In this document: piece after piece, positions 35,220-60,090 of the stretch
Numbering within the stretch: position 1 is the first letter of the stretch
How the letters are laid out: the number at the start of each line of letters is the position of its first letter
DNA from: an uncultured Lachnospiraceae bacterium
GTDB taxonomy: Bacteria > Bacillota > Clostridia > Lachnospirales > Lachnospiraceae
DNA: 64,000 nucleotides
Assembly: GCA_947631685.1 (NCBI GenBank)
Contig: CANRMI010000011.1
Coordinates: 1 to 64,000, forward strand
Reading direction: 5' to 3'
Notes under the pieces: generated by a model
Database searches by the model: none
Told to the model about the DNA's origin: nothing
Seen by the model: only the letters and a program-made list of their open reading frames with translations
Program-made: the position numbers and the translations under genes

Positions 35220-35250
35220 ATTTTCCTCTCATTCCGCCGCGAAGAGCGGC
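35220..35250 (-). promoter_or_regulatory. Leader hairpin-plus-SD element of prs, shared with ppa
   Basis: Read on the minus strand, GCCGC-TCTTC-GCGGC forms a hairpin directly followed by GGAATGAGAGGAAAAT and the prs ATG. The inorganic pyrophosphatase leader at 60061-60090 has nearly the same block; 29 of 34 aligned positions agree through the ATG, and the one change in the stem keeps pairing as G-U. Confidence 0.7.
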
Positions 35251-35291
35251 ACTGCAGTCGTAAGATTTTCATGAATCGATCCTATGAATAT

Positions 35292-35337
35292 TTTATAACA
35301 TTCCCCTAGTGACACGTCAAGAAATTTCTAGTACAAT
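35292..35337. promoter_or_regulatory. Back-to-back promoters for prs and the DUF512 gene
   Basis: Minus strand: TTGACG (35320-35315), 17-base spacer, TATAAA (35297-35292) for prs. Plus strand: GTGACA (35309-35314), 17-base spacer, TACAAT (35332-35337) for the DUF512 gene. The two -35 hexamers abut, so two polymerases could not bind together. Confidence 0.75.
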
Positions 35338-35362
35338 AGGAATGGACGCAAAGGAGCAGAGG

Positions 35363-36766
35363 ATGGAAAAACGCAAAGGACATGTTATCAAACAGGTGGA
35401 ACCGGACAGCATCGCGGAAGAAATGGGACTGGAGCCGGGAGACAGTATCGTGGCTATAAACGGCCAGGAGATAGAGGATATTTTTGACTATCAGTTCCTG
35501 CTGCAGGATGCTTATACGGAAGTTCTGGTGGAGACAAAAGACGGAGAGGAATGTCTGCTGGAAATAGAAAAGAACTGGAACGAAGACTTGGGAGTCGTAT
35601 TTGAAAACGGCCTGATGGATGAGTACAGGCATTGCTGCAATCACTGTATCTTTTGCTTTATCGACCAGATGCCTCCCGGAATGCGTCAGACCTTGTATTT
35701 TAAGGACGATGATTCCCGGCTCTCTTTTCTGCAGGGCAACTATGTGACTCTGACCAATATGTCCGAACACGATATAGACAGGATCATCCATTACCGGCTA
35801 GGACCTATCAATGTTTCCTTTCAGACCATGAATCCCGAACTGCGGTGTAAGATGTTGAACAACCGGTTCGCGGGAGATGCTCTGAAAAAAGTGGACAGGC
35901 TCTATCAGGCGGGCATCCCCATGAACGGTCAGATCGTGCTCTGCAAGGGCATCAACGACGGGGAGGAGCTGGAGTACAGTATTGCCAGACTGGCGGAGTA
36001 CATACCGGTGCTGGAAAGCGTTTCCGTGGTGCCGGTAGGTCTCACCAGATACAGGGAGGGATTGTATCCCCTGGAGGCTTTTACGGAAAAGGACGCGGAA
36101 GAGGTCATCGACAGGATAGAGCGCTGGCAGAAGAAACTTTACAAAGAAAAAGGCGTACATTTCGTCCACGCCAGTGACGAGTGGTATGCGCTGGCGGACA
36201 GGGAACTGCCGGAGGAAGCCCGCTATGACGGCTATCATCAGTTGGAAAACGGTGTGGGCATGCTGCGGCTTCTGTTGGATGAATTTCAAGAAGCCATGGA
36301 ACAGCAAAGGGCTTGGATAGATTCCGATAAAGAGTTCGATAAAGCTTCCCGCAAGGAAGGGAAGCCTGTCATTGTTTCTCTGGCTACGGGCAGGCTGGCA
36401 TATCCCTATATCCGGCAGATGGCAGAGACGATGGAGGCGGCCTGTAAGGGGCTGCAGATTCTGGTCTATCCTGTGCGGAATGATTTTTTCGGGGAGAGCA
36501 TAACGGTATCGGGGCTTTTGACAGGACAGGATATTGCCGCCCAGCTTGCGGGAAAGGCACTGGGAAGCAGGCTGTTTCTGCCGCAGAATGTGCTGCGCAG
36601 CGAGGGGGATCTGTTTCTGGACGATATGAAACTGCCGGAGTTAGAGAGGACTTTACAAGTTCAGATAGATATTGTAAAATCAAGTGGTTATGATTTTGTG
36701 GAAAGCATTCTGCGCGTATGGAAGGAGGCAAACGGATGGCAGGAAGAAAGTCGAAGCCCATTGTAG
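35363..36766 (+). CDS. DUF512 protein with PDZ and radical-SAM-like cysteine motif
   Basis: Protein of 467 residues. An N-terminal PDZ-like domain (KQVEPDSIAEEMGLEPGDS, residues about 8-26) precedes a CxxxCxxC cluster, Cys91-Cys95-Cys98 in CCNHCIFCFIDQMPPGM, the iron-sulfur signature of radical SAM enzymes, then GNYVTLTNM and the DUF512 C-terminal region. ATG 35363 follows AAAGGAGCAGAGG. It overlaps der by 31 bases, an association I recall as common in Clostridia. The reaction is unknown. Confidence 0.87.
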   Translation: MEKRKGHVIKQVEPDSIAEEMGLEPGDSIVAINGQEIEDIFDYQFLLQDAYTEVLVETKDGEECLLEIEKNWNEDLGVVFENGLMDEYRHCCNHCIFCFIDQMPPGMRQTLYFKDDDSRLSFLQGNYVTLTNMSEHDIDRIIHYRLGPINVSFQTMNPELRCKMLNNRFAGDALKKVDRLYQAGIPMNGQIVLCKGINDGEELEYSIARLAEYIPVLESVSVVPVGLTRYREGLYPLEAFTEKDAEEVIDRIERWQKKLYKEKGVHFVHASDEWYALADRELPEEARYDGYHQLENGVGMLRLLLDEFQEAMEQQRAWIDSDKEFDKASRKEGKPVIVSLATGRLAYPYIRQMAETMEAACKGLQILVYPVRNDFFGESITVSGLLTGQDIAAQLAGKALGSRLFLPQNVLRSEGDLFLDDMKLPELERTLQVQIDIVKSSGYDFVESILRVWKEANGWQEESRSPL

Positions 36767-38076
36767 CCGTAGTGGGAAGACCGAATGTGGGCAAGTCTAC
36801 CTTGTTCAATGCGCTGGCGGGAGAAAAGATCGCGATCGTAAAGGATACGCCGGGAATCACCCGAGACAGGATCTATGCGGATGTAAGCTGGCTGGATGAA
36901 AATTTTACATTGATAGATACGGGAGGAATAGAGCCGGACAGCCGGGATATTATCCTGTCCCAGATGCGTGAGCAGGCGCAGATCGCCATAGATACCGCGG
37001 ACGTGATCCTGTTCATGGTGGATGTACGGCAGGGATTAGTGGACGCCGACGCCAAAGTGGCGGATATGCTGCGGCGTTCTAAGAAGCCTGTGGTGCTGGC
37101 GGTCAACAAAGTGGACAGCTATGAAAAATACGGCAACGATGTCTATGAATTTTATAATCTGGGTATCGGGGAGCCCCATCCCATTTCCTCGGTCAATAAG
37201 CTGGGACTGGGAGACCTGCTGGATGAAGTGATCTCTTTCTTCCCGGAAGGGACGGGGGAGGAAGAAGAGGACGACAGGATACGAGTCGCGATCGTAGGAA
37301 AGCCCAATGTGGGGAAGTCCTCCATTATCAACAGGCTTTTGGGGGAAAACAGGCTGATCGTATCGGATATTGCGGGCACTACCAGGGACGCGGTGGATAC
37401 GGATGTAAGCTATAACGGCAGGGAATATGTCTTTATCGATACGGCGGGACTGCGCCGCAAGAATAAAATAAAAGAAGATCTGGAGCACTATATGATCCTG
37501 CGTACCGTGAGCGCGGTGGAGCGGGCGGACGTGGTGGTTCTGGTGATCGACGCCGTAGAGGGCGTCACCGAGCAGGACGCCAAGATCGCGGGAATCGCCC
37601 ATGACAGAGGCAAGGCTGTCATTATCGCGGTCAACAAATGGGACGCGGTGGAAAAGGACGATAAGACCATTTACCGTTTTACGGAGAAGGTGCGAAATAC
37701 CCTTTCTTTCATGCAGTACGCGGAGATACTTTTTATTTCCGCCAAGACCGGACAGCGGCTTCCCAAACTGTATGAGACCATTGACATGGTAAGCGAAAAC
37801 CACGCCATGAGGGTGCAGACCGGTGTGCTCAATGAGATCATGGCGGAAGCCACAGCCATGCAGCAGCCGCCTTCGGACAAGGGCAGACGGTTAAAGCTCT
37901 ACTATATTACCCAGGCTGCGGTCAAGCCACCCACCTTTGTGATCTTTGTAAACGACAAGGATCTGATGCATTTTTCCTATACCAGATATATTGAGAATCA
38001 GATAAGGGATACTTTTGGGTTCAGGGGAACGCCCCTGCGGTTTATTATCAGGGAGAGAAAGGAACAGGACAAATGA
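36736..38076 (+). CDS. der: Ribosome assembly GTPase Der (EngA)
   Basis: Double GTPase required for 50S maturation, 446 residues. First G domain: AVVGRPNVGKSTLFN, DTPGITRD, NKVDSYE. Second: AIVGKPNVGKSSIINR, DIAGTTRDAVD, DTAGLRRK, NKWDAVE. A KH-like C-terminal domain ends the protein. AAGGAGG lies before ATG 36736, inside the end of the DUF512 gene. Confidence 0.98.
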   Translation: MAGRKSKPIVAVVGRPNVGKSTLFNALAGEKIAIVKDTPGITRDRIYADVSWLDENFTLIDTGGIEPDSRDIILSQMREQAQIAIDTADVILFMVDVRQGLVDADAKVADMLRRSKKPVVLAVNKVDSYEKYGNDVYEFYNLGIGEPHPISSVNKLGLGDLLDEVISFFPEGTGEEEEDDRIRVAIVGKPNVGKSSIINRLLGENRLIVSDIAGTTRDAVDTDVSYNGREYVFIDTAGLRRKNKIKEDLEHYMILRTVSAVERADVVVLVIDAVEGVTEQDAKIAGIAHDRGKAVIIAVNKWDAVEKDDKTIYRFTEKVRNTLSFMQYAEILFISAKTGQRLPKLYETIDMVSENHAMRVQTGVLNEIMAEATAMQQPPSDKGRRLKLYYITQAAVKPPTFVIFVNDKDLMHFSYTRYIENQIRDTFGFRGTPLRFIIRERKEQDK

Positions 38077-38735
38077 TATTGGAGAGAGTGATCTGTCTGG
38101 TGATCGGATATGTGTTCGGTCTGTTCCAGACGGCGTATTTTTACGGAAAGGCTCACGGAATCGACATCAGAGAACATGGCAGCGGCAATTCCGGCACCAC
38201 GAACGCCCTCAGGGTATTGGGGACCAAGGCGGGACTGATCGTGCTGGCGGGGGACTGTTTAAAATGCATCCTGGCGATCTGGCTGACCTATCTGCTCTTC
38301 GGGCAGAGTCATCCGGAAAACAAATACCTGCTGGCTCTCTATACGGCGGCGGGAGTGATCCTGGGACATAATTACCCTTTTTACATGCATTTTAAGGGGG
38401 GAAAGGGCATCGCGGCCACGGCGGGACTGGTGCTGGCTTTTCATCCATATTTTATCCCCATGGGCGTGATCATCTTTTTTGCCACCTTTTTTACCACCCA
38501 CTATGTATCCTTAGGCTCTCTGTTAGTATACGCGGGTTTTATGGTGGAAATGGTGATCTGTGGGGAACTGGGTGTCTTTCATGGTATGCAGAGGCCCCAG
38601 CTGATAGAAATGTATATCCTCACCGCTCTGTTGACGATACTGGCGTATGTGAAACACAGGGCGAATATTGCGAGACTCATAAAAGGGGAAGAGAGAAAAA
38701 CTTATCTCTTTAAGAAAAACAAAACGGAGGAGTAG
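38073..38735 (+). CDS. plsY: Glycerol-3-phosphate acyltransferase PlsY
   Basis: Membrane enzyme that transfers the acyl group of acyl-phosphate (from PlsX) to glycerol-3-phosphate. 220 residues with about five helices. The conserved motifs are the GSGNSGTTNALRVLG loop (near residues 36-50), the GHNYPFYMHFKGGKGIAAT loop and a PlsY-type C-terminal end. It overlaps der by ATGA and precedes gpsA, which makes its substrate. Confidence 0.95.
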   Translation: MILERVICLVIGYVFGLFQTAYFYGKAHGIDIREHGSGNSGTTNALRVLGTKAGLIVLAGDCLKCILAIWLTYLLFGQSHPENKYLLALYTAAGVILGHNYPFYMHFKGGKGIAATAGLVLAFHPYFIPMGVIIFFATFFTTHYVSLGSLLVYAGFMVEMVICGELGVFHGMQRPQLIEMYILTALLTILAYVKHRANIARLIKGEERKTYLFKKNKTEE

Positions 38736-38741
38736 ACGAAT

Positions 38742-39755
38742 ATGGCAGATATAGGAATAATCGGAGCAGGAAGCTGGGGAATCGCGCTGGCAGTGCTTCT
38801 GCATAAAAACGGGCATCGCGTTACAGTCTGGTCCAAACTGGCGGACGAGATCGCCATGCTGGAGAAAGAGCATGAACACAAGGACAAACTGCCTGGCGTG
38901 AAGCTGCCGGCGGACATGGCCTTTACCACTGATCTAAAGGAAGCCGTAAAGGGCATGGATGTACTGGTGCTGGCAGTGCCTTCTTCCTTTACCAGGAGTA
39001 CGGCCAGGGAATTGAGCGCGGAGGTGGAAGAGGGACAGATCATCGTCAATGTGGCGAAAGGCATTGAGGAGCACACGCTCATGACGCTTTCCCAGATCAT
39101 TGAAGAGGAAGTGCCCAAGGCGACGGTAGCGGTGCTTTCCGGACCGTCCCACGCGGAGGAAGTGGGAAGAGGGATTCCTACCACCATTGTGGTGGGAGCC
39201 AGGAAAAAAGCTACGGCTGAGTATCTGCAGAACATTTTCATGAACGATGTGTTCCGTGTCTATACCAGTTCCGACGTACTGGGGATGGAGCTGGGAGCCG
39301 CCCTGAAGAATGTGGTGGCGCTGGCGGCAGGTATGGCGGACGGCCTGGGCTATGGGGACAATACCAAGGCGGCGCTGATCACCAGGGGAATCGCGGAAAT
39401 CTCCAGAGTGGGCGTGGCTATGGGAGCAAGAGCCGAAACGTTCAACGGTCTGACGGGTATCGGGGATCTGATCGTAACCTGCGCGTCCATGCATTCCCGC
39501 AACCGCAGGGCGGGCATTTTGATCGGACAGGGCAAGAGCATGGAGGAAGCCATGGCAGAAGTAAAGATGGTAGTAGAGGGTGTCTACTCCGCCAAGGCGG
39601 CCATGGGACTTGCTGAGAAATACGGAGTGCAGCTCCCCATTATCGAGCAGGTCAATCTGATCCTTTTCCATGGGAAAGCTCCCGGCGAAGCAGTCCGGGA
39701 TCTGATGCTGCGGGATAAGAAGATAGAAATCTCGGATGCCCAGTGGGAAGAATAG
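38742..39755 (+). CDS. gpsA: Glycerol-3-phosphate dehydrogenase [NAD(P)+]
   Basis: Reduces dihydroxyacetone phosphate to glycerol-3-phosphate for phospholipids; 337 residues. The nucleotide site is IIGAGSWGIALAVLLHKNGH, with VAKGIEEHT, LSGPSHAEEVGRGIPT, the catalytic lysine region GAALKNVVALAAGMADGLG and the TFNGLTGIGDLIVTC segment. plsY-gpsA adjacency places acceptor synthesis next to acyl transfer. Confidence 0.97.
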   Translation: MADIGIIGAGSWGIALAVLLHKNGHRVTVWSKLADEIAMLEKEHEHKDKLPGVKLPADMAFTTDLKEAVKGMDVLVLAVPSSFTRSTARELSAEVEEGQIIVNVAKGIEEHTLMTLSQIIEEEVPKATVAVLSGPSHAEEVGRGIPTTIVVGARKKATAEYLQNIFMNDVFRVYTSSDVLGMELGAALKNVVALAAGMADGLGYGDNTKAALITRGIAEISRVGVAMGARAETFNGLTGIGDLIVTCASMHSRNRRAGILIGQGKSMEEAMAEVKMVVEGVYSAKAAMGLAEKYGVQLPIIEQVNLILFHGKAPGEAVRDLMLRDKKIEISDAQWEE

Positions 39756-39780
39756 AAAATCGTATGTTGGAAGCCTAAAG

Positions 39781-39830
39781 AAAAGGCCGCGGGTCTACCG
39801 GATAGCGGATACAATCTCCGCGGCCATTTT
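39781..39830. terminator. Bidirectional terminator between gpsA and metF
   Basis: AAAAGGCCGCGG (39781-39792) pairs with CCGCGGCC followed by ATTTT (39818-39829), 8 strong base pairs plus flanking A/T. One arm lies in the last codons of metF, so it serves both convergent genes. Confidence 0.7.
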
Positions 39831-40652
39831 AGGTCTGTTCATGGTGTAGAGATGAATATCTTTGACGCCGTTATGACGTAAATCCTGTATCTGGCGGATG
39901 CAGTAGTCGATACCGGCCTTTCGCATTTCCTCCGGCCTGTCTCCGTAGGCAGCGATCAGATCGCTGAAAGCCTTTGGCAGGGAAGCGCCCGAAAGGGAAA
40001 TGGTGGTGCCCAGGGAAGAAGCTGAGGTAACGGGCATGATGCCGGCGCAGATTGGAACGGTAATGCCTTTCTTCTGGGCTCTGTCACAGAAATCATAAAA
40101 ATAATCGTTGTCAAAAAACATCTGGGTAATGAAGAAATCGGCGCCGGCGTCCTGTTTCTTTTTTAAATTGGCCAGGTCCGTTTCCCGGCTGAAGCATTCA
40201 TAATGCTTTTCCGGGTAGCAGGCACCGCCGCAGGAAAAGTCTGTATGTTCCCTTAAAAACGCGATCAGATCGGAAGCATAGAAAAATTCCCTGGACGCGA
40301 ACTGTTCGTCACTCATATCTCTGGGACGGTCGCCCCGAAGCGCCAGTACCTGAAAGATCCCCTGAGAAGCCAGTCCCTCCGTTACGGAAAGAATATCCTC
40401 TTTTTTATTTCCCACACAGGTCAGATGGGCCAGAACCTCCGTATGCAGCTCATTCTGGATAAAAGAAGCGATTTCCAGCGTCTTTTTGGATTTGCTGCCG
40501 CCGGCCCCGTAGGTAACGCTGATAAAATCAGGGTTTAGGGCGCTTAAGGCGCGCATGGTATCGAAAGCGGAAACAAAGTCCTCGTCCTTTTTGGGGGGGA
40601 ATACTTCAAAGGAAATGCCGGAACGTTCTTTGTGCAGTAAATCTTTGATCAT
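39795..40652 (-). CDS. metF: Methylenetetrahydrofolate reductase
   Basis: FAD enzyme that reduces methylene-THF to methyl-THF for methionine synthesis or the Wood-Ljungdahl route; 285 residues. It opens with ISFEVFPPKKDED and has DFISVTYGAGGS, ALRGDRPRD and the FITQMFFDNDYFYDF segment. No SAM riboswitch is visible in its short leader. GGAG lies before the ATG. Confidence 0.95.
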   Translation of the reverse strand: MIKDLLHKERSGISFEVFPPKKDEDFVSAFDTMRALSALNPDFISVTYGAGGSKSKKTLEIASFIQNELHTEVLAHLTCVGNKKEDILSVTEGLASQGIFQVLALRGDRPRDMSDEQFASREFFYASDLIAFLREHTDFSCGGACYPEKHYECFSRETDLANLKKKQDAGADFFITQMFFDNDYFYDFCDRAQKKGITVPICAGIMPVTSASSLGTTISLSGASLPKAFSDLIAAYGDRPEEMRKAGIDYCIRQIQDLRHNGVKDIHLYTMNRPKMAAEIVSAIR

Positions 40653-40673
40653 AATGTTTTCTCCATAAATTTC

Positions 40674-40721
40674 TTGATTTTAAAACAAGAATATCGTAAC
40701 ATGATAATAAATAATTTTCAA
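40674..40721. promoter_or_regulatory. Overlapping divergent promoters of metF and the MoxR gene
   Basis: Minus strand for metF: TTGAAA (40721-40716), 17-base spacer, TGT-TACGAT (-10 at 40698-40693). Plus strand for the ATPase gene: TTGATT (40674-40679), 17-base spacer, TAACAT (40697-40702). The -10 elements overlap by two bases. Confidence 0.55.
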
Positions 40722-40752
40722 TAAAAATAAGGGAAAGCGAAAGGAAGAATTT

Positions 40753-41580
40753 ATGGACGAGCAGCAGACGGGGTTTCGGGGAAGCAGCGAATATGTGGCC
40801 AGCGAAGAGCTGATGGCCAGTGTCAATGTAGCGATTGCTCTGAAAAAACCTCTTTTGATAAAAGGCGAGCCGGGGACCGGCAAGACCATGCTGGCGGAGG
40901 CAGTGGCGAAGTCCTTGGGTAAGAGGCTGATCATCTGGAATATCAAATCCACCACCAAGGCCCAGGAGGGGCTCTATGTATACGACACAATCCAGAGGCT
41001 CTACGACGGGCAGTTTGGGGAAGAGGGCGTGGACGATATTTCCCGTTATATCAAGCTGGGAAAGCTGGGAGAGGCGTTTGAAAGCGATGAACAGGTGGTG
41101 CTTTTGATCGACGAGATTGATAAGGCGGATCTGGAGTTTCCCAACGATCTGCTCTGGGAACTGGACAAGATGGAATTTTATATCCATGAGACCAGGCGTA
41201 CCGTGACGGCAAAGCACAGGCCGATTGTCATTATTACCTCCAATGCGGAAAAGGAACTGCCGGACGCGTTCCTGCGCCGCTGCATTTTCCACTATATAGA
41301 TTTTCCCGACGACGCGCTGATGGAAGAAATCGTAAAGGTGCATTATCCTGATGTGGAGGAAACCCTTTTAAAGAATGCCATGGAGGTATTCTACAGTATC
41401 AGAGGACTTAGGGACATCCGCAAGAAGCCCAGTACTTCGGAACTGATAGATTGGATCAACGCCCTGCAGTTAGGCGGTATTCCGGCGGATAAGATAAAGA
41501 GCGCCCTGCCCTTTATCGGCGTGGTGGTGAAAAAGGACGAGGATCTGGAAACCGTAAGACACAATGCCAATTCCCTGTAA
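40753..41580 (+). CDS. MoxR-family AAA+ ATPase
   Basis: Chaperone-like ATPase of 275 residues. Walker A GEPGTGKTMLAEAVAKSLG (about residues 38-56), Walker B VVLLIDEIDKAD, sensor IVIITSNAEKELPDAFLRRC with the arginine finger. MoxR proteins act with VWA proteins to mature metal enzymes or complexes. The VWA partner follows after nine bases. Confidence 0.9.
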   Translation: MDEQQTGFRGSSEYVASEELMASVNVAIALKKPLLIKGEPGTGKTMLAEAVAKSLGKRLIIWNIKSTTKAQEGLYVYDTIQRLYDGQFGEEGVDDISRYIKLGKLGEAFESDEQVVLLIDEIDKADLEFPNDLLWELDKMEFYIHETRRTVTAKHRPIVIITSNAEKELPDAFLRRCIFHYIDFPDDALMEEIVKVHYPDVEETLLKNAMEVFYSIRGLRDIRKKPSTSELIDWINALQLGGIPADKIKSALPFIGVVVKKDEDLETVRHNANSL

Positions 41581-41589
41581 GGAGGGCGT

Positions 41590-42798
41590 ATGTTTACTAA
41601 GTTTTTTCACTGTCTGCGCGAGAAGGGCATGCATGTCACCCTGGGGGAATTTTTAACCCTCCAGGAAGCGCTGCAGCAGGATCTGTGCCAAAGCAGCATG
41701 ACAGGGTTCTATTACGTGGCCCGTATGATCTTGGTTAAGAGCGAAACGGATTACGATAAATTTGACATGGCCTTTGAGGAGTGCTTTAAGGCCGCAAAAT
41801 TTGACAGGGAGATCACTTCCCAGATGCTGCGCTGGCTGGACAAATCCGATCTGCAGCAGCTTGCGGATGATGAGGCGAGGGCACAGTTAAATGAGCTGGA
41901 GGATCTGCAGGTCCATATGGACCAGGAAGAGATTCAGCAGAAATTTAAGGAAAGGCTGCGGGATCAGGACTCCGAGCACAACGGCGGCAGCTTCTGGATA
42001 GGCAGTATGGGCAAGACCTCTTTTGGAAGCAACGGCGGCAATGTGGGTGGTCTGCGGGTAGGCGGCAAAACCGGCCATCAGTCCGCCTTTGCGGTGATCG
42101 GTGAGAGAAAGTACCGGGATTTCAGGGACGACAGGGTATTGGACAACAGGCAGTTCCAGCTGGCTTTCCGCAAGCTGCGGCAGTTTTCCGCAAGGCTGGA
42201 CATTCCGGAAACGGAGCTGGATATTGACGGGACCGTAAACAAGACCTGCAACAACGGAGGCTGCCTGCAGATCGTCATGCAGAAGCCTCGTAAAAATGCG
42301 GTGAAACTGCTGCTCTTAATGGATTCCGGCGGCACCATGATCCCTTTCAGCGCCCTGTTGAATGACCTGTTTCAAGCTGTGCACAAATCCAATCATTACA
42401 AGGATGTGAAAACCTATTATTTTCATAACTGCATTTACAGCAAGCTTTACAAAACGCCGGAGTGTGAAAATGGGGACTGGATAGACACGGACTGGATGTT
42501 TAAGAATCTGGGCAGCGACTATAAGGTGATCATTGTAGGAGATGCCGCTATGGCGCCGGAAGAACTGTATTCCGATACGGGCAATTACAGAGGGCCCAAC
42601 GGAGGACTCTCCGGCTGGGACTGGCTGCAGCTTGTGAAAAAGCATTATAAAAAGGTAGTCTGGCTTAATCCCAAAATGGCGCCGGGACATGCGCCCTGGC
42701 GGGAGGCGGAAACTGCCATCAAGGGACTGTTCCCCATGTATAAGCTGACGGTGGACGGCTTAAACCAGGCCATGGTGAAGCTGATGACGAATAAATAG
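41590..42798 (+). CDS. VWA-domain protein, CoxE-like, partner of MoxR
   Basis: Protein of 402 residues with no signal or membrane segment. The C-terminal half is a VWA domain: VKLLLLMDSGGTMIPF carries an altered metal-ion site, Asp245-Ser-Gly-Gly-Thr where DxSxS is usual. Asp/Thr positions later include IVGDAAMAPEELYS. The N-terminal half is helical (ELEDLQVHMDQEEIQQKFKE). A glycine-rich linker (SMGKTSFGSNGGNVGG) separates them. The target complex is not apparent; cox genes are absent. Confidence 0.8.
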   Translation: MFTKFFHCLREKGMHVTLGEFLTLQEALQQDLCQSSMTGFYYVARMILVKSETDYDKFDMAFEECFKAAKFDREITSQMLRWLDKSDLQQLADDEARAQLNELEDLQVHMDQEEIQQKFKERLRDQDSEHNGGSFWIGSMGKTSFGSNGGNVGGLRVGGKTGHQSAFAVIGERKYRDFRDDRVLDNRQFQLAFRKLRQFSARLDIPETELDIDGTVNKTCNNGGCLQIVMQKPRKNAVKLLLLMDSGGTMIPFSALLNDLFQAVHKSNHYKDVKTYYFHNCIYSKLYKTPECENGDWIDTDWMFKNLGSDYKVIIVGDAAMAPEELYSDTGNYRGPNGGLSGWDWLQLVKKHYKKVVWLNPKMAPGHAPWREAETAIKGLFPMYKLTVDGLNQAMVKLMTNK

Positions 42799-42831
42799 AA
42801 GCGGAATGCCGGTCCACGGTGCAATTTTCGG

Positions 42832-42860
42832 TTGACAATCGGATAAACTGTTTGTATAAT
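42832..42860 (+). promoter_or_regulatory. Consensus sigma-A promoter of T-box-tyrS
   Basis: TTGACA (42832-42837), exactly 17 bases, TATAAT (42855-42860). This is the only full-consensus promoter in the window; output is presumably limited by the T-box. Confidence 0.92.
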
Positions 42861-42866
42861 GACTAA

Positions 42867-43163
42867 TCATAATACTTTTGAACGCGATGATGGGAAGAAG
42901 TACCTTTGTTTACAGGCTCACAGAGAGCTGCCGGCTGGTGAGAGGCGCGAGCAGAGCGGAGGGAAATACATCCCGGAGCAGCGGACCGAAACGTGAAAAA
43001 GGCGCGGAGATCTTCCGCGGCGGAACGCGGAGTAGGCTCTGCCGGAGGCACCGATATCTGCCGGGGTATTGACAGATACCCGCAAAGCCGCAGGGCGTAA
43101 GTCCTGTGGGAATTAAGGTGGTAACACGGTTCACCCCGTCCTTATGAAAGGACGGGGTTTTTT
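42867..43163 (+). promoter_or_regulatory. Tyrosyl T-box riboswitch
   Basis: This fills the gap of about 450 bases before tyrS. Stem I carries the AGAGAGCTGCCGGCTGGTG block (42922-42940). The specifier loop has GAAA-TAC-ATCC with the Tyr codon UAC at 42967-42969. The T-box core is AATTAAGGTGGTAACACGG (43111-43129). The terminator CCCCGTCC (43134-43141) with GGACGGGG (43150-43157) and six T ends it. Uncharged tRNA-Tyr would stabilise the antiterminator and switch tyrS on. Confidence 0.95.
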
Positions 43164-43247
43164 GTGGTAAAAGCGGCCGCGCGTTATGGGACGGTGATGG
43201 CTGCCAATGTTTTATCATCGCGGCTTTCTAACAGGAGGAGAGAAGAA

Positions 43248-44471
43248 ATGACGGTATTTGAGGAATTAAAGAAGCGGGGACTTCTGGCCCAGCTTACGGA
43301 CGAGGAAGAGATCAGGGAACTGGTCAACAACGGCAGAGCCACTTTCTATATCGGCTTTGATCCCACCGCGGACAGCCTGCATGTAGGCCATTTCATGGCG
43401 CTGTGCCTGATGAAGCGTCTGCAGATGGCGGGAAATAAGCCCATTGCCCTGATCGGCGGCGGCACGGCTATGATTGGGGATCCTTCCGGCAGAAGCGATA
43501 TGCGGACCATGATGACAAAGGAGACCATAGAGCATAACTGCGAATGCTTCAAAAAGCAGATGAGCCGTTTTATCGACTTTTCGGAAGGCAGAGCGCTGAT
43601 GGTGAACAACGCGGACTGGCTTATGGATCTGAACTATATCTCTTTTCTGCGGGAGATCGGTGCCCATTTCAGCGTCAACCGGATGCTGACCGCGGAATGT
43701 TATAAACAGCGTATGGAAAAGGGCCTGAGTTTCCTGGAGTTCAACTACATGATCATGCAGAGCTACGATTTCCTGCAGCTTTATGAGAAATACGGCTGCA
43801 ATATGCAGTTCGGCGGGGACGACCAGTGGAGCAACATGCTGGGAGGGACGGAGCTGATCCGCCGGAAGCTGGGAAAAGACGCCTATGCCATGACCATTAC
43901 CCTGCTGCTCAATTCCGAGGGCAAGAAAATGGGAAAGACGCAGAAAGGCGCCGTATGGCTGGATCCCAATAAGACTTCTCCCTTTGAATTTTACCAGTAC
44001 TGGAGAAACGTGGCGGACGCGGATGTGTTGAAATGTCTGCGGATGCTCACTTTCCTGCCTTTGGAGCAGATAGAGGAAATGGATCAGTGGGAGGGCAGCC
44101 AGCTGAACACCGCCAAGGAAATTCTGGCGTATGAGCTTACCAATCTGGTACACGGAGAGGAAGAGGCAAAACGGGCCCAGGAAAGCGCGAGAGCTCTCTT
44201 TAGCAGCGGCAGCGCGGCTGAAATGCCCACCTCCGTTTTGAAGAAAGAGGATTTTGTAAACGGCAGCATCGACATCATGGGCGTGCTGGTAAAGGCGGGG
44301 CTGACAACTTCCCGTTCCGAGGCCAGAAGAGCGGTGGAACAGGGCGGCGTGACCGTGGCGGATGAAAGGGTTACGGATATTAAGACGGTGTACGCGCCGG
44401 AGCAGTTCGCCGGAGAGGGCCTGGTGGTCAGACGCGGCAAGAAAAATTTTAGGCGGGTAGTGATGGAATAA
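43248..44471 (+). CDS. tyrS: Tyrosyl-tRNA synthetase
   Basis: Charges tRNA-Tyr; 407 residues, bacterial TyrS length. ATG 43248 follows AGGAGGAG. Class I signatures are [10 protein letters not shown] (HIGH) near residue 45 and KKMGKTQKG (KMSKS). [10 protein letters not shown] and [14 protein letters not shown] are typical. A C-terminal S4 domain ([18 protein letters not shown]) binds the tRNA. Regulated by the T-box in front. Confidence 0.98.
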
Positions 44472-45112: not shown

Positions 45113-45117
45113 AATCA

Positions 45118-51181: not shown

Positions 51182-51233
51182 GCCAGGAGGCGGAAAGGAA
51201 ATGCCGCGTAAAACGGCAGAATGAAAGAAAAGC

Positions 51234-51716: not shown

Positions 51717-51731
51717 TAAAATAGCTGAAAC

Positions 51732-51766: not shown

Positions 51767-51777
51767 GTGGAGGGAAT

Positions 51778-51927: not shown

Positions 51928-51930
51928 TGG

Positions 51931-51957: not shown

Positions 51958-51976
51958 ACGTATGGGTGGAAGCAAG

Positions 51977-53680: not shown

Positions 53681-55866
53681 GCGTGGCAATGGAAGAAACA
53701 CAAAAGGATACGGTGGATTACAGAGCGGAATACCGGCCTGCGAAGCCGGTAGCAGTCATAAAAAAAGACGGCAGCAAAGAAGCTTTTAATATGCAGAAGG
53801 TAGTGGACGCTATTGGAAAGAGCGCTTACCGGGCGCTGACTCAATTTACCGAGGATGAAAAACGACATATATGTCAGCATGTCATCGACAAGGTGGACGG
53901 GATAGGGGCGGACGAGATTCCTATCCAGGTCATGCACAATGTGGTGGAGAGCGCGCTGGAAGAGGTAAAGCCCATTGTGGCCAAAAGTTACCGGGACTAC
54001 CGCAATTATAAGCAGGATTTTGTGCGTATGCTGGACGATGTCTATAAAAAGAGCCAGTCCATTATGTACATCGGCGACAAGGAGAATGCCAACACGGACT
54101 CCGCGCTGGTCTCCACCAAGAGGAGCCTGATCTTCAATCAGTTGAATAAGGAGCTCTACCAGAAGTTCTTTATGACGACGGAGGAGATCCAGGCCTGCCG
54201 GGACGGATATATCTATGTCCATGACATGTCAGCCCGCCGGGATACCATGAACTGCTGTTTATTTGATGTGGAGAGCGTACTGTCCGGCGGCTTTGAAATG
54301 GGGAATATCTGGTACAATGAACCCAAGACACTGGATGTGGCGTTCGATGTGATCGGGGATATTGTGCTGAGCGCGGCCAGCCAGCAGTATGGCGGGTTTA
54401 CGGTGCCCAGCGTGGACAATCTCTTAGAGCCCTACGCGGAAAAATCCTACAGAAAATATGTGGAAAAATATGAGGGTTTGGGAATCTCCCATGAGAAAGC
54501 CGAGGAAACGGCCTATGCGGATGTGGTAAGGGAATTTGAACAGGGCTTCCAGGGCTGGGAATATAAATTCAATACCGTTGCCAGCAGCAGAGGGGATTAT
54601 CCTTTCATTACCGTGACCGCCGGTACGGGGACGGGACGTTTCGCGAAGCTGGCTACGATTTCCATGCTCAATGTCAGAAGAGAGGGACAGGGAAAGAAAG
54701 AATGCAAAAAGCCTGTGTTCTTTCCCAAGATCGTATTTCTGTATGATGAGAACCTGCATGGGGAGGGGAAACCTTTAGAGGACGTATTTGAAGCAGGTAT
54801 CCGCTGTTCCGCCAAATCCATGTATCCGGACTGGCTGAGCCTGACGGGAAAGGGCTATGTGGCCAGCATATACAAGCAGTACGGCAGGATCATTTCTCCC
54901 ATGGGCTGCAGGGCTTTTTTGTCCCCCTGGTACGAAAGAGGCGGTATGCATCCTGCGGACGATAAGGATATGCCGGTGTTTGTGGGACGCTTTAATATAG
55001 GCGCGGTGTCCCTGCATCTGCCCATGATTCTGGCCAAGGCCAGACAGGAGAGCCGGGATTTTTACGAAGTACTGGATTACTATCTGGAACTCATCCGGCA
55101 GCTGCATATCCGCACCTATGCCTATCTGGGGGAAATGCGGGCCTCCACCAATCCGCTGGCCTACTGTGAGGGCGGTTTCTTAGGCGGGCATTTAAAGCTC
55201 ACCGACAAGATCAAGCCCCTTTTAAAGTCCGCTACCGCAAGCTTCGGGATCACGGCGTTAAACGAGCTGCAGATGCTTTATAACGGCAAGTCCCTGGTGG
55301 AGGACGGTCAGTTCGCGCTGGAGGTCATGGAGCATATCAATGCCAAGGTCAATGAATTTAAAGAGGCGGACGGCAATCTGTACGCTATCTACGGAACTCC
55401 CGCGGAAAACCTCTGTGGACTGCAGATCAAACAGTTCAGAAGAAAGTACGGCATTATCGAAGGGGTTTCCGACAGGGAATATGTGAGTAACTCTTTCCAC
55501 TGTCATGTGACGGAGGACATTACGCCCATAGAAAAGCAGGATCTGGAAGAGCGTTTCTGGAATCTGTGCAACGGCGGAAAGATACAGTATGTAAAATATC
55601 CTATAGACTACAATATTGAAGCGATCAAATCGCTGGTACGCAGGGCTATGGAAATGGGCTTTTACGAGGGAGTGAATCTGTCCTTAGCCTATTGTGACGA
55701 CTGCGGGCATCAGGAATTGGAGATGGATGTCTGCCCGAAGTGCGGCAGCCGCAATCTGACGAAGATCGACAGGATGAACGGCTATCTGTCCTACTCCAGG
55801 GTACATGGGGATACCAGACTCAATGAAGCCAAAATGGCGGAAATTGCGGAAAGGAAAAGCATGTAA
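53677..55866 (+). CDS. nrdD: Anaerobic ribonucleoside-triphosphate reductase
   Basis: Glycyl-radical enzyme that makes dNTPs without oxygen; 729 residues. GTG 53677 lies seven bases behind AAGGAGGAG; an in-frame ATG at 53689 is farther away. The ATP-cone begins VIKKDGSKEAFNMQKV. The active-site cysteines lie around IISPMGCRAFLSPW and NCCLFDVE. The C-terminus has a zinc ribbon CDDC-N-CPKC and the radical loop RMNGYLSYSRV. nrdG and dut follow. No NrdR box was found in front. Confidence 0.96.
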   Translation: MSVAMEETQKDTVDYRAEYRPAKPVAVIKKDGSKEAFNMQKVVDAIGKSAYRALTQFTEDEKRHICQHVIDKVDGIGADEIPIQVMHNVVESALEEVKPIVAKSYRDYRNYKQDFVRMLDDVYKKSQSIMYIGDKENANTDSALVSTKRSLIFNQLNKELYQKFFMTTEEIQACRDGYIYVHDMSARRDTMNCCLFDVESVLSGGFEMGNIWYNEPKTLDVAFDVIGDIVLSAASQQYGGFTVPSVDNLLEPYAEKSYRKYVEKYEGLGISHEKAEETAYADVVREFEQGFQGWEYKFNTVASSRGDYPFITVTAGTGTGRFAKLATISMLNVRREGQGKKECKKPVFFPKIVFLYDENLHGEGKPLEDVFEAGIRCSAKSMYPDWLSLTGKGYVASIYKQYGRIISPMGCRAFLSPWYERGGMHPADDKDMPVFVGRFNIGAVSLHLPMILAKARQESRDFYEVLDYYLELIRQLHIRTYAYLGEMRASTNPLAYCEGGFLGGHLKLTDKIKPLLKSATASFGITALNELQMLYNGKSLVEDGQFALEVMEHINAKVNEFKEADGNLYAIYGTPAENLCGLQIKQFRRKYGIIEGVSDREYVSNSFHCHVTEDITPIEKQDLEERFWNLCNGGKIQYVKYPIDYNIEAIKSLVRRAMEMGFYEGVNLSLAYCDDCGHQELEMDVCPKCGSRNLTKIDRMNGYLSYSRVHGDTRLNEAKMAEIAERKSM

Positions 55867-56390
55867 TGAGGTATCACAATATCACCAAAGACGATATGCT
55901 CAATGGGGACGGCCTGCGGGTGGTGCTGTGGGTATCCGGCTGTGCCCACTGCTGTGATGGCTGTCACAATCCGGTAACATGGGATCCCAACGGAGGACTT
56001 CTGTTCGATGAGGACGCCAAAGAGGAGCTGTTTGAACAGCTTGAAAAGCCCTATATCAGCGGAATTACCTTTTCGGGGGGAGATCCCCTGCATCCCGCCA
56101 ACCGGCTGGAGGTACGGGAACTGATGGCAGAGATCCGGGAAAAATTTCCGGATAAGACCATTTGGCTTTATACGGGAGCCGTATGGGAAGAAATCTATTC
56201 CGATCCTCTTATGGAGTATGTGGATGTGGTGGTGGACGGGGAGTTTCAAAAAGAGAAAAAGGATACCAAGCTGCTCTGGAAGGGCAGCGCCAACCAGCGG
56301 GTGATAGACGTTAAGAAAACGCTGGCGGGAGCAGACAGGAGAATACCGGTTCTGCATTGCGGGAATTATGAAAGTGAGGATGGCATATGA
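55866..56390 (+). CDS. nrdG: Anaerobic ribonucleotide reductase activating protein
   Basis: Radical SAM activase for NrdD, 174 residues. The cluster motif is CAHCCDGCHNPVTW (CxxxCxxC at about residues 27-34), with ITFSGGDPLHPAN near 65. It begins one base within the nrdD stop, and overlaps dut by ATGA. Confidence 0.95.
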   Translation: MRYHNITKDDMLNGDGLRVVLWVSGCAHCCDGCHNPVTWDPNGGLLFDEDAKEELFEQLEKPYISGITFSGGDPLHPANRLEVRELMAEIREKFPDKTIWLYTGAVWEEIYSDPLMEYVDVVVDGEFQKEKKDTKLLWKGSANQRVIDVKKTLAGADRRIPVLHCGNYESEDGI

Positions 56391-56899
56391 AGAAGGTAGC
56401 GCGTTTTTATAAGGTCAGCGAAGAAAATTTTGTGGAGGCTATGAAAGCGGAATTTCCCGAGTATACGGAAGAAGATATTAAGGATATGTACGATTCCCTG
56501 CAGCTCCCTAAAAGAGCCACGAAGGGCAGCGCGGGCTATGATTTTTTTGCGCCCTTTGCTTTCAGCCTGCCTGCGGGCAGTACCATCAAGATTCCCACCG
56601 GAATCCGGGTGAAAATAGAGGACGGCTGGGTGCTGCAGCTCTACCCCAGAAGCGGCCTGGGATTTAAGTACAGACTCCAGTTGAACAATACGGTTGGAAT
56701 CATCGACAGCGACTACTACGATTCCGACAACGAAGGCCATATCTTTGCCAGGATAACCAATGATTCCAACGAGGATAAAACCCTGGAAATAGGAGCGGGC
56801 GCCGGCTTCATACAGGGGATTTTCATGGAATACGGGATCACGGAGGACGATGAAGCGGAAGGCGTCCGAAACGGCGGATTCGGAAGTACCAGCAGATAA
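56387..56899 (+). CDS. dut: dUTPase-like deoxyuridine triphosphate nucleotidohydrolase
   Basis: Hydrolyses dUTP to dUMP; 170 residues. The five dUTPase motifs are visible: AGYDFFAP, PRSGLG, NTVGIIDSDYY, GAGAGFIQGIF and RNGGFGSTSR at the flexible C-terminus. An N-terminal extension of about 35 residues (FVEAMKAEFPEYTEEDIKDM) is additional. Clustered with nrdDG, it removes dUTP from the dNTP pool. Confidence 0.92.
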   Translation: MKKVARFYKVSEENFVEAMKAEFPEYTEEDIKDMYDSLQLPKRATKGSAGYDFFAPFAFSLPAGSTIKIPTGIRVKIEDGWVLQLYPRSGLGFKYRLQLNNTVGIIDSDYYDSDNEGHIFARITNDSNEDKTLEIGAGAGFIQGIFMEYGITEDDEAEGVRNGGFGSTSR

Positions 56900-56903
56900 A
56901 ATA

Positions 56904-56964
56904 TGCATAAAGGACTCCTTTTTCGGGATACTAACCTTAGTATATCTGGAAAGGGAGTTTTTTT
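56904..56964 (+). promoter_or_regulatory. Sigma-G-like promoter nested in the terminator hairpin before spoVAF
   Basis: TGCATA (56904-56909), 17 bases, GATACTA (56927-56933) fits forespore sigma-G. The same stretch forms a hairpin, ACTCCTTTTTC (56914-56924) with GAAAGGGAGT (56949-56958), followed by seven T and the ATG. The ribosome site GGGAG is in the right arm. Confidence 0.65.
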
Positions 56965-58416
56965 ATGGATAACAATGAAGAAAAAACCAACGCCAGGATA
57001 AGCGGCGTTTTAAAAGACGATATGGCCTATCTGAATGAAAGGCTGGCTGTGGATATGAGCTTCGACCTGGTCTACCGGGTAATCCGGATCGGAGAGAGGG
57101 ATGCCTGTATGTATTTTGTGGACGGTTTCTGCAAGGACGAGTTGATGCAGAAGCTGCTGCAGTATTTTATGAGCATTACAAAAGAGGACATGCCGGCGGA
57201 TGCCCATGAGATGAGCAAGAGGCATATTCCCTATGTGGAGGTGGATCTCAAGGATTCCTGGGATGACATTCTCTACGGCCTCTTGTCCGGTGTGTTTGTC
57301 CTGCTGATCGAAGGCTACACCAGCGCGATCATGATCGATTCCAGAACCTATCCGGCCAGAAGCGTGGGAGAACCGGATAAGGACAAGGTGCTCAGGGGTT
57401 CCAAGGACGGCTTTGTGGAAACCCTGATCTTCAATACCGCGCTGATCAGAAGAAGGATCCGCAGTACGGAGCTGCGCATAGAAATGATGTGCGCCGGCAA
57501 TAACTCCAAAACGGACATAGCCGTCTGCTACATGGATTCCCGTGTGGATCATAAATTTCTGGCGCAGATCAAGGAGCGGATCCAAAACATTCAAGTGGAC
57601 GCGCTGACCATGAACCAGGAGAGCCTGGCAGAGTGCCTGTATGAAAGGAAATGGTACAATCCCTTTCCCAAGTTCAAGTATTCGGAGCGGCCCGATACGG
57701 CGGCGGCCCAGATACTGGAAGGAAATATCGTGATCCTGGTGGACAATTCCCCCTCCGCCATGATGATGCCCACGTCTATTTTCGATGTGATAGAAGAGGC
57801 GGATGATTACTATTTTCCACCCATTACAGGTACGTATCTGCGGCTTTCCCGTTTTTTGATTGCGCTGCTGACTTATTTTCTGACGCCTACTTTCTTGCTG
57901 CTGATGAACAACCGGGAGTACATTCCCCAGGCATTTCAGTTCATTGTGCTGAAGGAACAGGAGAACATTCCCCTGATCTGGCAGTTTTTGATATTGGAAC
58001 TGGCGATAGACGGCCTGCGGCTGGCTGCGGTCAATACCCCGAATATGTTAAGTACGCCCCTGTCCGTCATGGCGGCGCTGGTGCTGGGAGAATTTTCGGT
58101 CAACAGCGGCTGGTTTAACGCGGAGGTAATGCTCTACATGGCCTTTGTGGCCATAGCCAACTATACCCAGTCCAATTATGAACTGGGATACGCGCTGAAA
58201 TTTATGCGGATTCTGACGTTGATCCTAACCGCAATATTTGGCCTGTGGGGCTATATCGGCGGCGTCGTTTTCTGCGCGCTGGCGGTGGTCACTAACCGGA
58301 CGGTCTCCAGGCAGAGCTATATTTATCCCCTGCTGCCTTTTAATTTCAAAAAACTGGGGGCGAGACTGTTCCGCCTGCGGCTGCCGGGAGCCAGACAGCC
58401 GGGGCCCAGACATTAG
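56965..58416 (+). CDS. spoVAF: Spore germination protein SpoVAF (GerA family A subunit)
   Basis: Inner spore membrane protein of 483 residues. The soluble N-terminal half has GERDACMYFVDGFCKDELM and SGVFVLLIEGYTSAIMID; the second half has about five helices with YLRLSRFLIALLTYFLTPTF and LAAVNTPNMLSTPLSV. This matches SpoVAF rather than the nutrient-receptor A subunits. SpoVA proteins move dipicolinic acid; SpoVAF acts with FigP in germination. No other spoVA gene is nearby. Confidence 0.9.
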   Translation: MDNNEEKTNARISGVLKDDMAYLNERLAVDMSFDLVYRVIRIGERDACMYFVDGFCKDELMQKLLQYFMSITKEDMPADAHEMSKRHIPYVEVDLKDSWDDILYGLLSGVFVLLIEGYTSAIMIDSRTYPARSVGEPDKDKVLRGSKDGFVETLIFNTALIRRRIRSTELRIEMMCAGNNSKTDIAVCYMDSRVDHKFLAQIKERIQNIQVDALTMNQESLAECLYERKWYNPFPKFKYSERPDTAAAQILEGNIVILVDNSPSAMMMPTSIFDVIEEADDYYFPPITGTYLRLSRFLIALLTYFLTPTFLLLMNNREYIPQAFQFIVLKEQENIPLIWQFLILELAIDGLRLAAVNTPNMLSTPLSVMAALVLGEFSVNSGWFNAEVMLYMAFVAIANYTQSNYELGYALKFMRILTLILTAIFGLWGYIGGVVFCALAVVTNRTVSRQSYIYPLLPFNFKKLGARLFRLRLPGARQPGPRH

Positions 58417-58436
58417 AACAGCCGGGACCCAGACAT
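58395..58436 (+). repeat. 19-bp direct repeat across the spoVAF stop codon
   Basis: ACAGCCGGGGCCCAGACAT (58395-58413) and ACAGCCGGGACCCAGACAT (58418-58436) differ at one base; a shorter third copy begins at about 58383. The first encodes the last residues QPGPRH and the second lies after the stop. Confidence 0.85.
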
Positions 58437-58447
58437 GAGAAAAAGGA

Positions 58448-58476
58448 TTGTAAAATCCGGCTGATAATGGTATAAT
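58448..58476 (+). promoter_or_regulatory. Promoter of degV
   Basis: TTGTAA (58448-58453), 17-base spacer, TGG-TATAAT with -10 at 58471-58476. A GTCAA-TTAT-TTGAC inverted repeat lies in the leader near 58508-58521. Confidence 0.7.
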
Positions 58477-58552
58477 GTTCCTTATTCAAGCCGAAAACGA
58501 TTGAAAAGTCAATTATTTGACGGTTTATTTATGAAAGGGGACATGAAGCAGT

Positions 58553-59434
58553 ATGGCGGATTTTGTGATTGTGACGGATTCTACGGCAGATCTGCCCGTG
58601 GAATATTTGGAAGACAATAATATTGTATGTATGAATATGAGCTATACGGTGGACGGGGAAGTTTACAGCGGCAAGACAGGAAAGGAGCTTCCCTGGAAAG
58701 AGTTTTACAGACTGATGAGGGAAGAGGAGAAAATGCCCACCACCTCCCAGATTAATCCCGAAGAGATCAAGGACACCTTTGAAGAACTGATACAAAAGGG
58801 TAATAAGGAGATCCTCTATCTGGCCTTTTCCTCGGGATTGAGCGGTACCTGCAATAACGGAAAGATCGCGGCGCAGGACGTCATGGAAGAGCATCCCGAT
58901 GTGAAGATCATAGTGATAGATTCCCTGAGTGCTTCTTTGGGAGAGGGGCTGTTTGTGTACTATGCGGCCAGGATGCGTTTGGCAGGCAGGACCATGGAAG
59001 AAACGGCAGAGTGGCTGAACGCCAATGTCCAGAACTTTGTCCATGTCTTTACGGTGGACGATCTGCATCATCTGTACCGGGGCGGACGCGTTTCCAAGAC
59101 CACCGCGATCATCGGCACCATGGCGGGGATCAAACCCATTCTGCATGTGGATAAGGAAGGACATCTGATACCCATCGACAAGGTGCGGGGCAGAAAGAAA
59201 TCCCTGTCCAGACTGGTGGATTATATGGGGCAGCATATGGGTTCCCGCAGGAAGGACAATGAGATCGTATTTATCAGCCACGGTGACGCGCTGCAGGATG
59301 CCCAGTATGTGGCTGGGCAGGTAGAAGAGCGGTTCGGGATCAAGAATTTTATGGTAGCGCCCATCGGTCCCACTGTCGGCACCCATTCCGGGCCCGGCAC
59401 CATAGCCTTGTTCTTTTTAGGAGAGGAAAGATAA
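58553..59434 (+). CDS. DegV family fatty-acid-binding protein
   Basis: Protein of 293 residues of the DegV/FakB fold, which binds fatty acids for FakA kinase. The signature is DFVIVTDSTADLPVEYLEDN, then TSQINPEEIKDTFEEL, YLAFSSGLSGTCNNGKIA and the HSGPGTIALFF end. fakA is not in the window. Stands alone with its own promoter and terminator. Confidence 0.92.
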   Translation: MADFVIVTDSTADLPVEYLEDNNIVCMNMSYTVDGEVYSGKTGKELPWKEFYRLMREEEKMPTTSQINPEEIKDTFEELIQKGNKEILYLAFSSGLSGTCNNGKIAAQDVMEEHPDVKIIVIDSLSASLGEGLFVYYAARMRLAGRTMEETAEWLNANVQNFVHVFTVDDLHHLYRGGRVSKTTAIIGTMAGIKPILHVDKEGHLIPIDKVRGRKKSLSRLVDYMGQHMGSRRKDNEIVFISHGDALQDAQYVAGQVEERFGIKNFMVAPIGPTVGTHSGPGTIALFFLGEER

Positions 59435-59454
59435 AAAGATATAAAGAAAAAGAT

Positions 59455-59489
59455 AAGGGCACGCTCCCCATCGGGAATGTGCCCTTTTT
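59455..59489. terminator. Bidirectional terminator between degV and ppa
   Basis: AAGGGCAC-N2-CTCCC pairs with GGGAAT-GTGCCCTT to give an eight-bp outer stem, then TTTTT. The opposite strand also ends in a T-rich tract. Confidence 0.8.
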
Positions 59490-59508
59490 ATATGCCGTTT
59501 TGCAGTTC

Positions 59509-60060
59509 TTACCAGCTTCGGATAAATTTGTCGATATAATTGTCCAGACAGTGCTCAATGACTCTGATAGCGTCTTCCCTGTTGCCCTGCTCATTTACAT
59601 CGGTGGTCTTATTCTCCAGCGCCTTGTAAATAGTGAAGAAATGTTCCATTTCCTGCACCACATGTGCGGGCAGCTCGGAGATGTCGTGGTAGTTGTTGTA
59701 TGTAGGATCGTTAAAAGGCACCGCGATGATCTTCTCATCCTTTTTGCCGCCGTCCAGCATGGAAATGACGCCAATGGGATAGGCTCTGACAAGAGTCAGG
59801 GGCGATACCGGCTCCGAACAGAGCAATAGCACGTCCAGAGGATCCCCGTCGTCGCCGTAAGTCCTGGGAATAAAGCCGTAATTGGCCGGATAGTGAGTGG
59901 AAGTATATAAAATCCGGTCCAGGATAATGTAACCGGTTTCTTTGTCCAGCTCATATTTGTTCTTGCTGCCCTTGGGAATCTCTATCACGCAGATAAAGTC
60001 CGTGGGCGTAACCCTTTTCACATTGATATTATGCCAGATACTATTATTGATACTGTCCAT
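59509..60060 (-). CDS. ppa: Inorganic pyrophosphatase, family I
   Basis: Hydrolyses pyrophosphate released by biosynthesis; 183 residues. IEIPKGSKNKYELDKETG, the motif YGDDGDPLDVLLL with its catalytic aspartates, and VPFNDPTYNNYHDI are diagnostic. The leader carries a hairpin-SD block nearly identical to that of prs. Confidence 0.96.
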   Translation of the reverse strand: MDSINNSIWHNINVKRVTPTDFICVIEIPKGSKNKYELDKETGYIILDRILYTSTHYPANYGFIPRTYGDDGDPLDVLLLCSEPVSPLTLVRAYPIGVISMLDGGKKDEKIIAVPFNDPTYNNYHDISELPAHVVQEMEHFFTIYKALENKTTDVNEQGNREDAIRVIEHCLDNYIDKFIRSW

Positions 60061-60090
60061 ATTTCCTCACATTCTGCCACGAAAAGCGGC
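60061..60090 (-). promoter_or_regulatory. Leader hairpin-plus-SD element of ppa, shared with prs
   Basis: On the minus strand, GCCGC-TTTTC-GTGGC, then AGAATGTGAGGAAAT and the ATG. See the prs element at 35220-35250. Both leaders measure about 66 bases from the predicted start site to the ATG. Confidence 0.7.

Follow-up and report, generated by a model that had tools for sequence, protein, structure and literature searches.

A hairpin and ribosome-binding-site module precedes unrelated genes in Lachnospiraceae genomes

The stretch of DNA analysed here, which we call the window, comprises 64,000 nucleotides (nt) of an uncultured Lachnospiraceae bacterium (contig CANRMI010000011.1, positions 1 to 64,000) and is part of a 2.34-Mb assembly of 24 contigs (GCA_947631685.1; hereafter G000). 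On its minus strand lie prs and ppa, each preceded by the same short element, a hairpin followed by a Shine-Dalgarno (SD) sequence. We found that these two leaders are two of dozens of copies of a hairpin and ribosome-binding-site (RBS) module that stand before unrelated genes in this genome. The scores given for single copies are those of a covariance model, R1, built from 11 copies.

34035..35219, minus strand: prs, ribose-phosphate pyrophosphokinase (Pfam PF13793, PF00156); gap from GAGGA to ATG, 4 nt
35224..35250, minus strand: prs module (R1 33.4 bits, E 2.1e-5), with hairpin GCCGC-TCTTC-GCGGC at 35250-35236, GGAATG at 35235-35230, A, and SD GAGGA at 35228-35224
59509..60060, minus strand: ppa, inorganic pyrophosphatase (Pfam PF00719); gap from GAGGA to ATG, 3 nt
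60064..60090, minus strand: ppa module (R1 27.2 bits, E 9.3e-4), with hairpin GCCGC-TTTTC-GTGGC at 60090-60076, AGAATG at 60075-60070, T, and SD GAGGA at 60068-60064

A first-pass annotation of the window had pointed out the likeness of the two leaders, and both its coordinates and its count stood. By eye, 29 of 34 positions are identical, with one indel, and the lone stem change between the leaders (C to T) preserves pairing as G-U. As it had also held, the similarity is due neither to chance nor to tandem duplication: within the window the 21-mer GCCGCTYTTCGYGGCRGAATG matches only at 35230-35250 and 60070-60090, both on the minus strand, even at up to 3 mismatches, and dinucleotide shuffles gave a mean of 0.01 matches, with two matches in 0 of 100 shuffles. 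The shared element is indeed a leader feature at a fixed position relative to the SD and the ATG. The leader lengths of about 66 nt for both genes are predictions based on -10-like boxes.

This module, which we call type A, opens with a GC-rich hairpin of 5 bp (GCCGC-loop-GCGGC), followed by single-stranded RGAATGN, then by a short SD (GAGGA) and, mostly 3-4 nt later, by the start codon; the hairpin ends about 15 nt upstream of the ATG. The pattern GCNGAATGN{0,4}AGGA has 35 matches in the assembly, compared with 3 for the reversed control, and RGAATGNGAGGA is found perfectly at 24 places, 21 of which lie 2-7 nt ahead of an ATG and three of which do not. The scan with a covariance model that the first-pass annotation had suggested returned 35 places at E<=0.01, ahead of unrelated genes, with 150 of 3,880 first-look candidates scored. 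Among the carriers are genes that we take to be hisS, a ferredoxin-NADP reductase subunit with its neighbour gltA, gyrB or parE, ksgA and ispD, and presumably also hom, engB, nrnA, feoA, clpX, cysS, lipoproteins and response regulators. These names are by-eye readings of N-termini, some of them reached from covariance-model matches, and of the genes behind a module or a relative of it, Pfam was applied only to prs, ppa, rnhA and rpsP; on this reading the downstream genes are diverse and no common function was seen. Carriers often have a same-strand upstream neighbour less than 200 nt away.

The position of the module at start codons was not built into the search, because the pattern used to scan the contigs of named genomes held no start codon. 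In the stretches listed from that scan (at least 115), 127 RGAATGNGAGGA sites are found, and the start codon of an open frame follows 120 of them, at a distance of 3 nt in 78, 4 nt in 31 and 5-10 nt in 11; the other seven, one from Streptomyces included, have no following start codon. Random occurrence in coding regions, which the first-pass annotation had named as the mark of an accidental similarity, is thus the opposite of what we found. The same spacing appears in surveys of whole gene sets, in which start codons were called by a simple script. Across about 390 kb and 371 called genes of G147, the genome richest in type A, GAATG begins at -14 in 22 genes and GCGGC at -20 in 21. Of the 195 confident genes of G147, 52 are preceded by a GC-rich hairpin whose end lies 11-20 nt from the start, with a peak at 13-16, compared with 4.6 in shuffles; on contig 1 of G000 such hairpins precede 12 of 242 genes (shuffles 3.2). 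In ten genomes of the family that lack the type A string, one gene out of 147 had such a hairpin, compared with 2.8 in shuffles; only 10 of these genes came from four of the genomes together. In other carriers a hairpin abuts the RBS in 9 of 71, 5 of 34, 2 of 29, 4 of 40 and 11 of 43 genes, several of these stretches having been chosen for containing matches. Hairpin-RBS sites of all types precede about a quarter of the genes checked in G147.

Type A is accompanied in G147 and in its close relative G375 by other hairpin-RBS types, with RGATGGGAGC, ATGGAGG or ATGAAAGGAT. A second type consists of a GC-rich hairpin, for instance GCGCGC-loop-GCGCGC, followed by RGATRGGAG, and was read at L274, L278, L281 and L286 of G147 and at L571-L574 of G375; in the G375 stretches read, it outnumbers type A.

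The module is lineage-specific. In the genus of the window, 24 of 25 genomes have between 1 and 44 covariance matches at E<=0.01 and one has none, and no match at this threshold was obtained in 16 genomes from 16 other families of the order. When 299 genomes from the whole family were searched for the exact string GCGGCRGAATGNGAGGA, 23 contained it, with 0 for the reversed control; the richest belong to two genera, represented by G147 with 91 occurrences and G213 with 58. Among the matches listed from the named contigs, 80 titles are mostly those of metagenome-assembled genomes of Lachnospiraceae type (Acetatifactor-, Roseburia-, Lachnoclostridium-, Eisenbergiella-labelled and others), and the remaining labels are Clostridia, Clostridium, Muribaculum, Gastranaerophilales, Bacillota, Eubacteriales and one Streptomyces. 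This single Streptomyces match is consistent with the chance rate that we estimate at about 1.

Orthologues retain pairing where the stems themselves differ. The stem of the fnr-like gene is GCCG/CGGC in one pair of species and GCCA/TGGC in another pair, the clpX-like gene was read in 5 species, 4 of which have long stems that are quite different, and in the hisS and prs orthologues the loops and the last stem pair change together; in all four, RGAATGNGAGG follows the stem. Outside the named set, a simple stem is present at 99 of 127 motif sites, compared with 5.3 in shuffles; among the 28 that remain, several show longer stems by eye. For the genus of the window we aligned 32 copies, out of 36 with at least 3 of 5 pairs, leaving out four of another stem geometry: all 160 of 160 cells pair, and the pairs vary little, from C-G to U-G and, in three, to U-A. 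This comparison of orthologues says more about selection on the hairpin than formal covariation does.

Presence of the module varies between close relatives. Most of the 30 prs leaders compared within the genus have a recognisable prs promoter (TTGACGTGTCACTA, TATAAA), and two of the 30 carry the module, namely those of G000 and of G015, its nearest relative in that set (97% identical). In G345 and G373, whose Prs is 93% identical, the leader is short and plain and ends in GGAGGAAAC-N-ATG. At ppa, 28 loci were located: G000 and G015 have the full module, G345 and G373 a degraded one, G013 the motif but no simple stem, and G343 a variant hairpin; no module was seen at the remaining loci, some of which are only partial.

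Several of these differences take the form of an insert beside conserved flanks. Relative to prs of G373, that of G015 has an insert between CGCA and GAGGAAA, seen as a 23-nt gap, with aligned flanks and less certain edges. At the L244 and L254 genes of G147, a member of another genus than the window's, 88 and 98 nt are inserted between the native SD and the ATG in comparison with G375, with conserved flanks, and at a third gene the core alone is inserted before the ATG. In three G147/G375 pairs, in which the unit is absent from G375 and the start is shared, the two genomes agree in the base before the ATG (C, T, G); this base is not kept in a fourth, more distant pair (G147 and G376). The empty-site comparison of ppa with G371 was not clean, and a wider scan printed 48 gapped alignments through a loose filter, some of the L244, L254 and prs cases included and not all of them clean.

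The G147 module forms the 3' end of a longer unit, about 100 nt in length, which is made up of the hairpin GATTGAAA..TTTCAATC (hp1), a second long hairpin (hp2), CTGATTAAAAT and type A. The two hairpins lie near both ends of the long unit, which is dispersed in near-identical copies: near-full ones (at least 93 of 100 bases) number 21 in G147, 80-99% identical to the query, and 12 in G213, at 75-88%. Searched with the same unit, G000 and G005, both of the window's genus, match only over its last 28-41 bases. Twenty of the 22 G147 copies with upstream repeat sequence precede frames of at least 100 codons, and the other two stand before frames of 6 and 3 codons; these tiny-frame copies are intergenic, at L262 (minus strand, about 443) and L288 (plus strand, about 9223). 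Tandem hairpin-hairpin-SD arrays also lie between G147 genes, at L239 (minus strand, about 1260-1530), L262, L278 and L254. The hp1 stems of such arrays differ and keep their pairing (GATTGAAA/TTTCAATC, GGTTGAAAG/CTTTCAACC and, in L277, AGTGTGAAA/TTTCACACT), and in G375 the hp1 piece alone (unit positions 1-26) occurs at about 14 places among the matches listed, at 92-100% identity. No Y1 transposase (PF01797) was detected in G147, G375 or G005, whose drafts are 97, 96 and 82% complete, and one each was detected in G000 and G213. We found no mobilising enzyme in a search that was aimed at Y1 and did not extend to other enzyme families.

The window holds two weaker relatives of the module, listed here with the one leader that Rfam recognises.

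51203..51229, plus strand: relative in the leader of rnhA (RNase H by Pfam), GCCG-N7-CGGC, AGAATG, AAAGAA; R1 15.8 bits, E 0.98, not significant alone
17526..17554, plus strand: variant in the leader of rpsP (ribosomal protein S16, Pfam PF00886, frame at 17557), hairpin TCCGT-AAAT-ACGGA, CGGAAAG, AGAGGA, ATG at 17557; R1 16.2 bits, E 0.79, not significant alone
42878..43146, plus strand: T-box leader (RF00230, 96.8 bits), directly 5' of a tyrosyl-tRNA synthetase-like gene (43164..44471; PF00579)

The rnhA relative that the first-pass annotation had proposed is therefore present in sequence, and its score does not single it out. At the gathering score the T-box was the only Rfam match in the window. 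At E<=1, 15 loci of G000 gave 3 matches and 12 loci of G147 gave 1, all below gathering, to animal or ciliate RNA families, and none at the core module; the earlier statement that no such RNA element is known holds as far as Rfam extends.

We favour, with a probability of about 0.5, the view that this is a lineage-specific, genome-wide hairpin-RBS module that was gained by insertion at RBSs and then came to act in cis on initiation or mRNA stability. Gain would have proceeded gene by gene, through insertion at the native RBS, which the module would re-create, and in some genera the module would form part of the dispersed repeat of about 100 nt. After its arrival it would be retained in the translation-initiation region of the gene, acting in cis. 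About 15 nt before the start codon is where the 30S footprint ends. Placed there, at the 5' border of the site on which 30S docks, a stable stem might aid ribosome docking, or might shield the ribosome-bound 5' end from 5'-to-3' decay. The sequences show directly how the module is built, distributed and spaced, that it is present in some and absent from other genomes between conserved flanks, and that orthologues with differing stems retain the pairing; that it is transcribed and folds in the cell, that it affects initiation or stability, and how it moves we infer from them. A more specific proposal, that of a mobile RBS targeted to start codons, is tentative and falls short of even odds: here a hairpin element would insert about 1 nt before the ATG, bring its own SD and rewire initiation gene by gene. 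Among the possible roles of the hairpin we judge a direct effect in cis, on docking or 5'-end protection, to be the most likely, a trans-acting binder to come second and a merely tolerated repeat third.

Several observations weigh against this interpretation. The predicted openness of the SD in G147 is 0.39 with the native module, 0.44 with the hairpin shuffled (p=0.03) and 0.50 in other genes (p=0.002); the corresponding G000 values (0.42, 0.43 and 0.52) are not significant (n=9). With so little variation in the stem sequence, formal covariation is weak: the score was reached by 20 of 500 shuffles, double changes fall in one pair, and only rows with 3 or more of the 5 pairs had been admitted beforehand. 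Type A conserves the sequence of its 3' arm GCGGC and of RGAATG beyond what a purely structural role would need. Moreover, AGAATGAGAGG occurs without a hairpin ahead of the hom-like gene of G345 and G373 and of the L015 gene of G015, and for several genes that carry the module in one species, close orthologues lack it altogether. Many loci were fetched by queries that contained the hairpin, which inflates the hairpin counts, and the start codons are those of the simple script caller.

Other roles for the parts of the module were considered and set aside. A hairpin serving as an insulator that keeps the SD open is unsupported, the SD being slightly less open with the module. The AUG within RGAATG does not appear to begin a mini open reading frame: it lies mostly 12 or 13 nt from the true ATG (78 and 31 copies in the stretches listed) and so keeps no frame with it. 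A T directly after it, giving ATG-TGA, is present in 9% of 132 copies, C and G being equally frequent at that position. For a K-turn, no conserved partner strand was seen by eye.

The leading competitor, which we regard as doubtful, is a post-transcriptional regulon in which an RNA-binding protein or a small RNA would recognise GCGGCRGAAUG beside the SD and block or help the ribosome at all carriers. Regulons of comparable size exist, and the conservation of the type A sequence, including single-stranded RGAATG and the 3' arm (in sets partly selected by motif), argues for it, as does the abutment of motif and SD. However, the carriers, named mostly by eye, share no visible function. Moreover, the RGATRGGAG type is found in G375 at four genes that carry type A in G147, the further species read there having plain sites, which suggests that an architecture recurs and not one sequence. 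No factor was identified, and no perfectly matching antisense RNA stood out in the genome's own perfect-match list, which was inspected without any further search. Still less probable, in our view, is a selfish or neutral dispersed hairpin repeat (REP-, REPIN-, BOX- or MITE-like), tolerated at start codons only for its SD, with a hairpin that would serve spread and not the host. The 21 near-full copies in G147, the tandem arrays between genes, the clean empty sites at L244 and L254 and the two copies ahead of tiny frames that are not genes are all as such a repeat would predict. They contrast with the short 3' matches of G000 and G005 to the long unit, with the pairing that persists in orthologues despite changing loops and upstream sequence, and with the lack of Y1 transposases in G147, G375 and G005, a search that covered Y1 and not other enzyme families.

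Sequestration of the SD, as in a switch or thermometer in which upstream UUCC or CUCCC pairs with GGAA or GGGAG, is very improbable. The complementarity is visible by eye in the long units of types A and B, and in type A of G147 the expected number of pairs between upstream sequence and RBS is 4.78, compared with 3.79 in shuffles (p=0.06). Nevertheless, type B of G147 (3.68 vs 5.12, p=0.009) and the window's genus (2.05 vs 2.64 bp, p=0.004) pair less than shuffles, and the named set does not differ (3.83 vs 3.50, p=0.43); in none of the four sets is pairing significantly above chance. The coordination of prs with ppa that the first-pass annotation had proposed from the agreement of their leaders we consider hardly credible, as the same module precedes many unrelated genes and is carried by only two of the 30 prs leaders and by few ppa leaders.

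If our interpretation is correct, members of a common family of gut bacteria use a spreading RNA module as RBS, in the richest genome at as many as about one gene in four, and RBS evolution in these bacteria would therefore proceed by insertion and not by point mutation alone. The module would also offer a natural test bed for the effect of a hairpin at the 30S entry edge on initiation and mRNA decay, RBS parts for the engineering of gut anaerobes, and a new target preference among small mobile repeats.

We found no report of such an element in the literature searched, which did not cover subscription papers and preprints. Among repeats, REPINs and BOX elements come closest in kind. REPs are extragenic and are moved by a transposase of the Y1 type (RAYT). 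Like REPs and REPINs, the module is a short dispersed hairpin without coding capacity, present in many copies per genome and in tandem or pairs; unlike REPs, it stops a few nt short of a start codon, and includes an SD, in almost every copy examined, and no Y1 transposase was detected in G147, G375 or G005. The BOX elements of Streptococcus pneumoniae resemble it in being modular repeated units with RNA structure near genes. To our knowledge, neither BOX nor REPIN elements are placed at start codons with an SD of their own, nor do BOX elements provide the RBS at a constant distance. In Bacillus, 5' stem-loop stabilisers beside the SD (aprE, STAB-SD) place a stem near the bound ribosome, with a proposed protection from 5'-to-3' decay; those are single-gene cases, whereas here the module is repeated and often has a same-strand upstream neighbour within 200 nt. 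The TAACTGA direct repeats of Beggiatoaceae are described as lying in many cases within several nt upstream of putative start codons, with no functional pattern downstream and a suggested post-transcriptional role (PMC4679880). Those are heptamer direct repeats, reported from genomes where canonical RBSs are rare, unlike the hairpin and SD of Lachnospiraceae; they are the nearest known system in position and in the absence of a functional theme.

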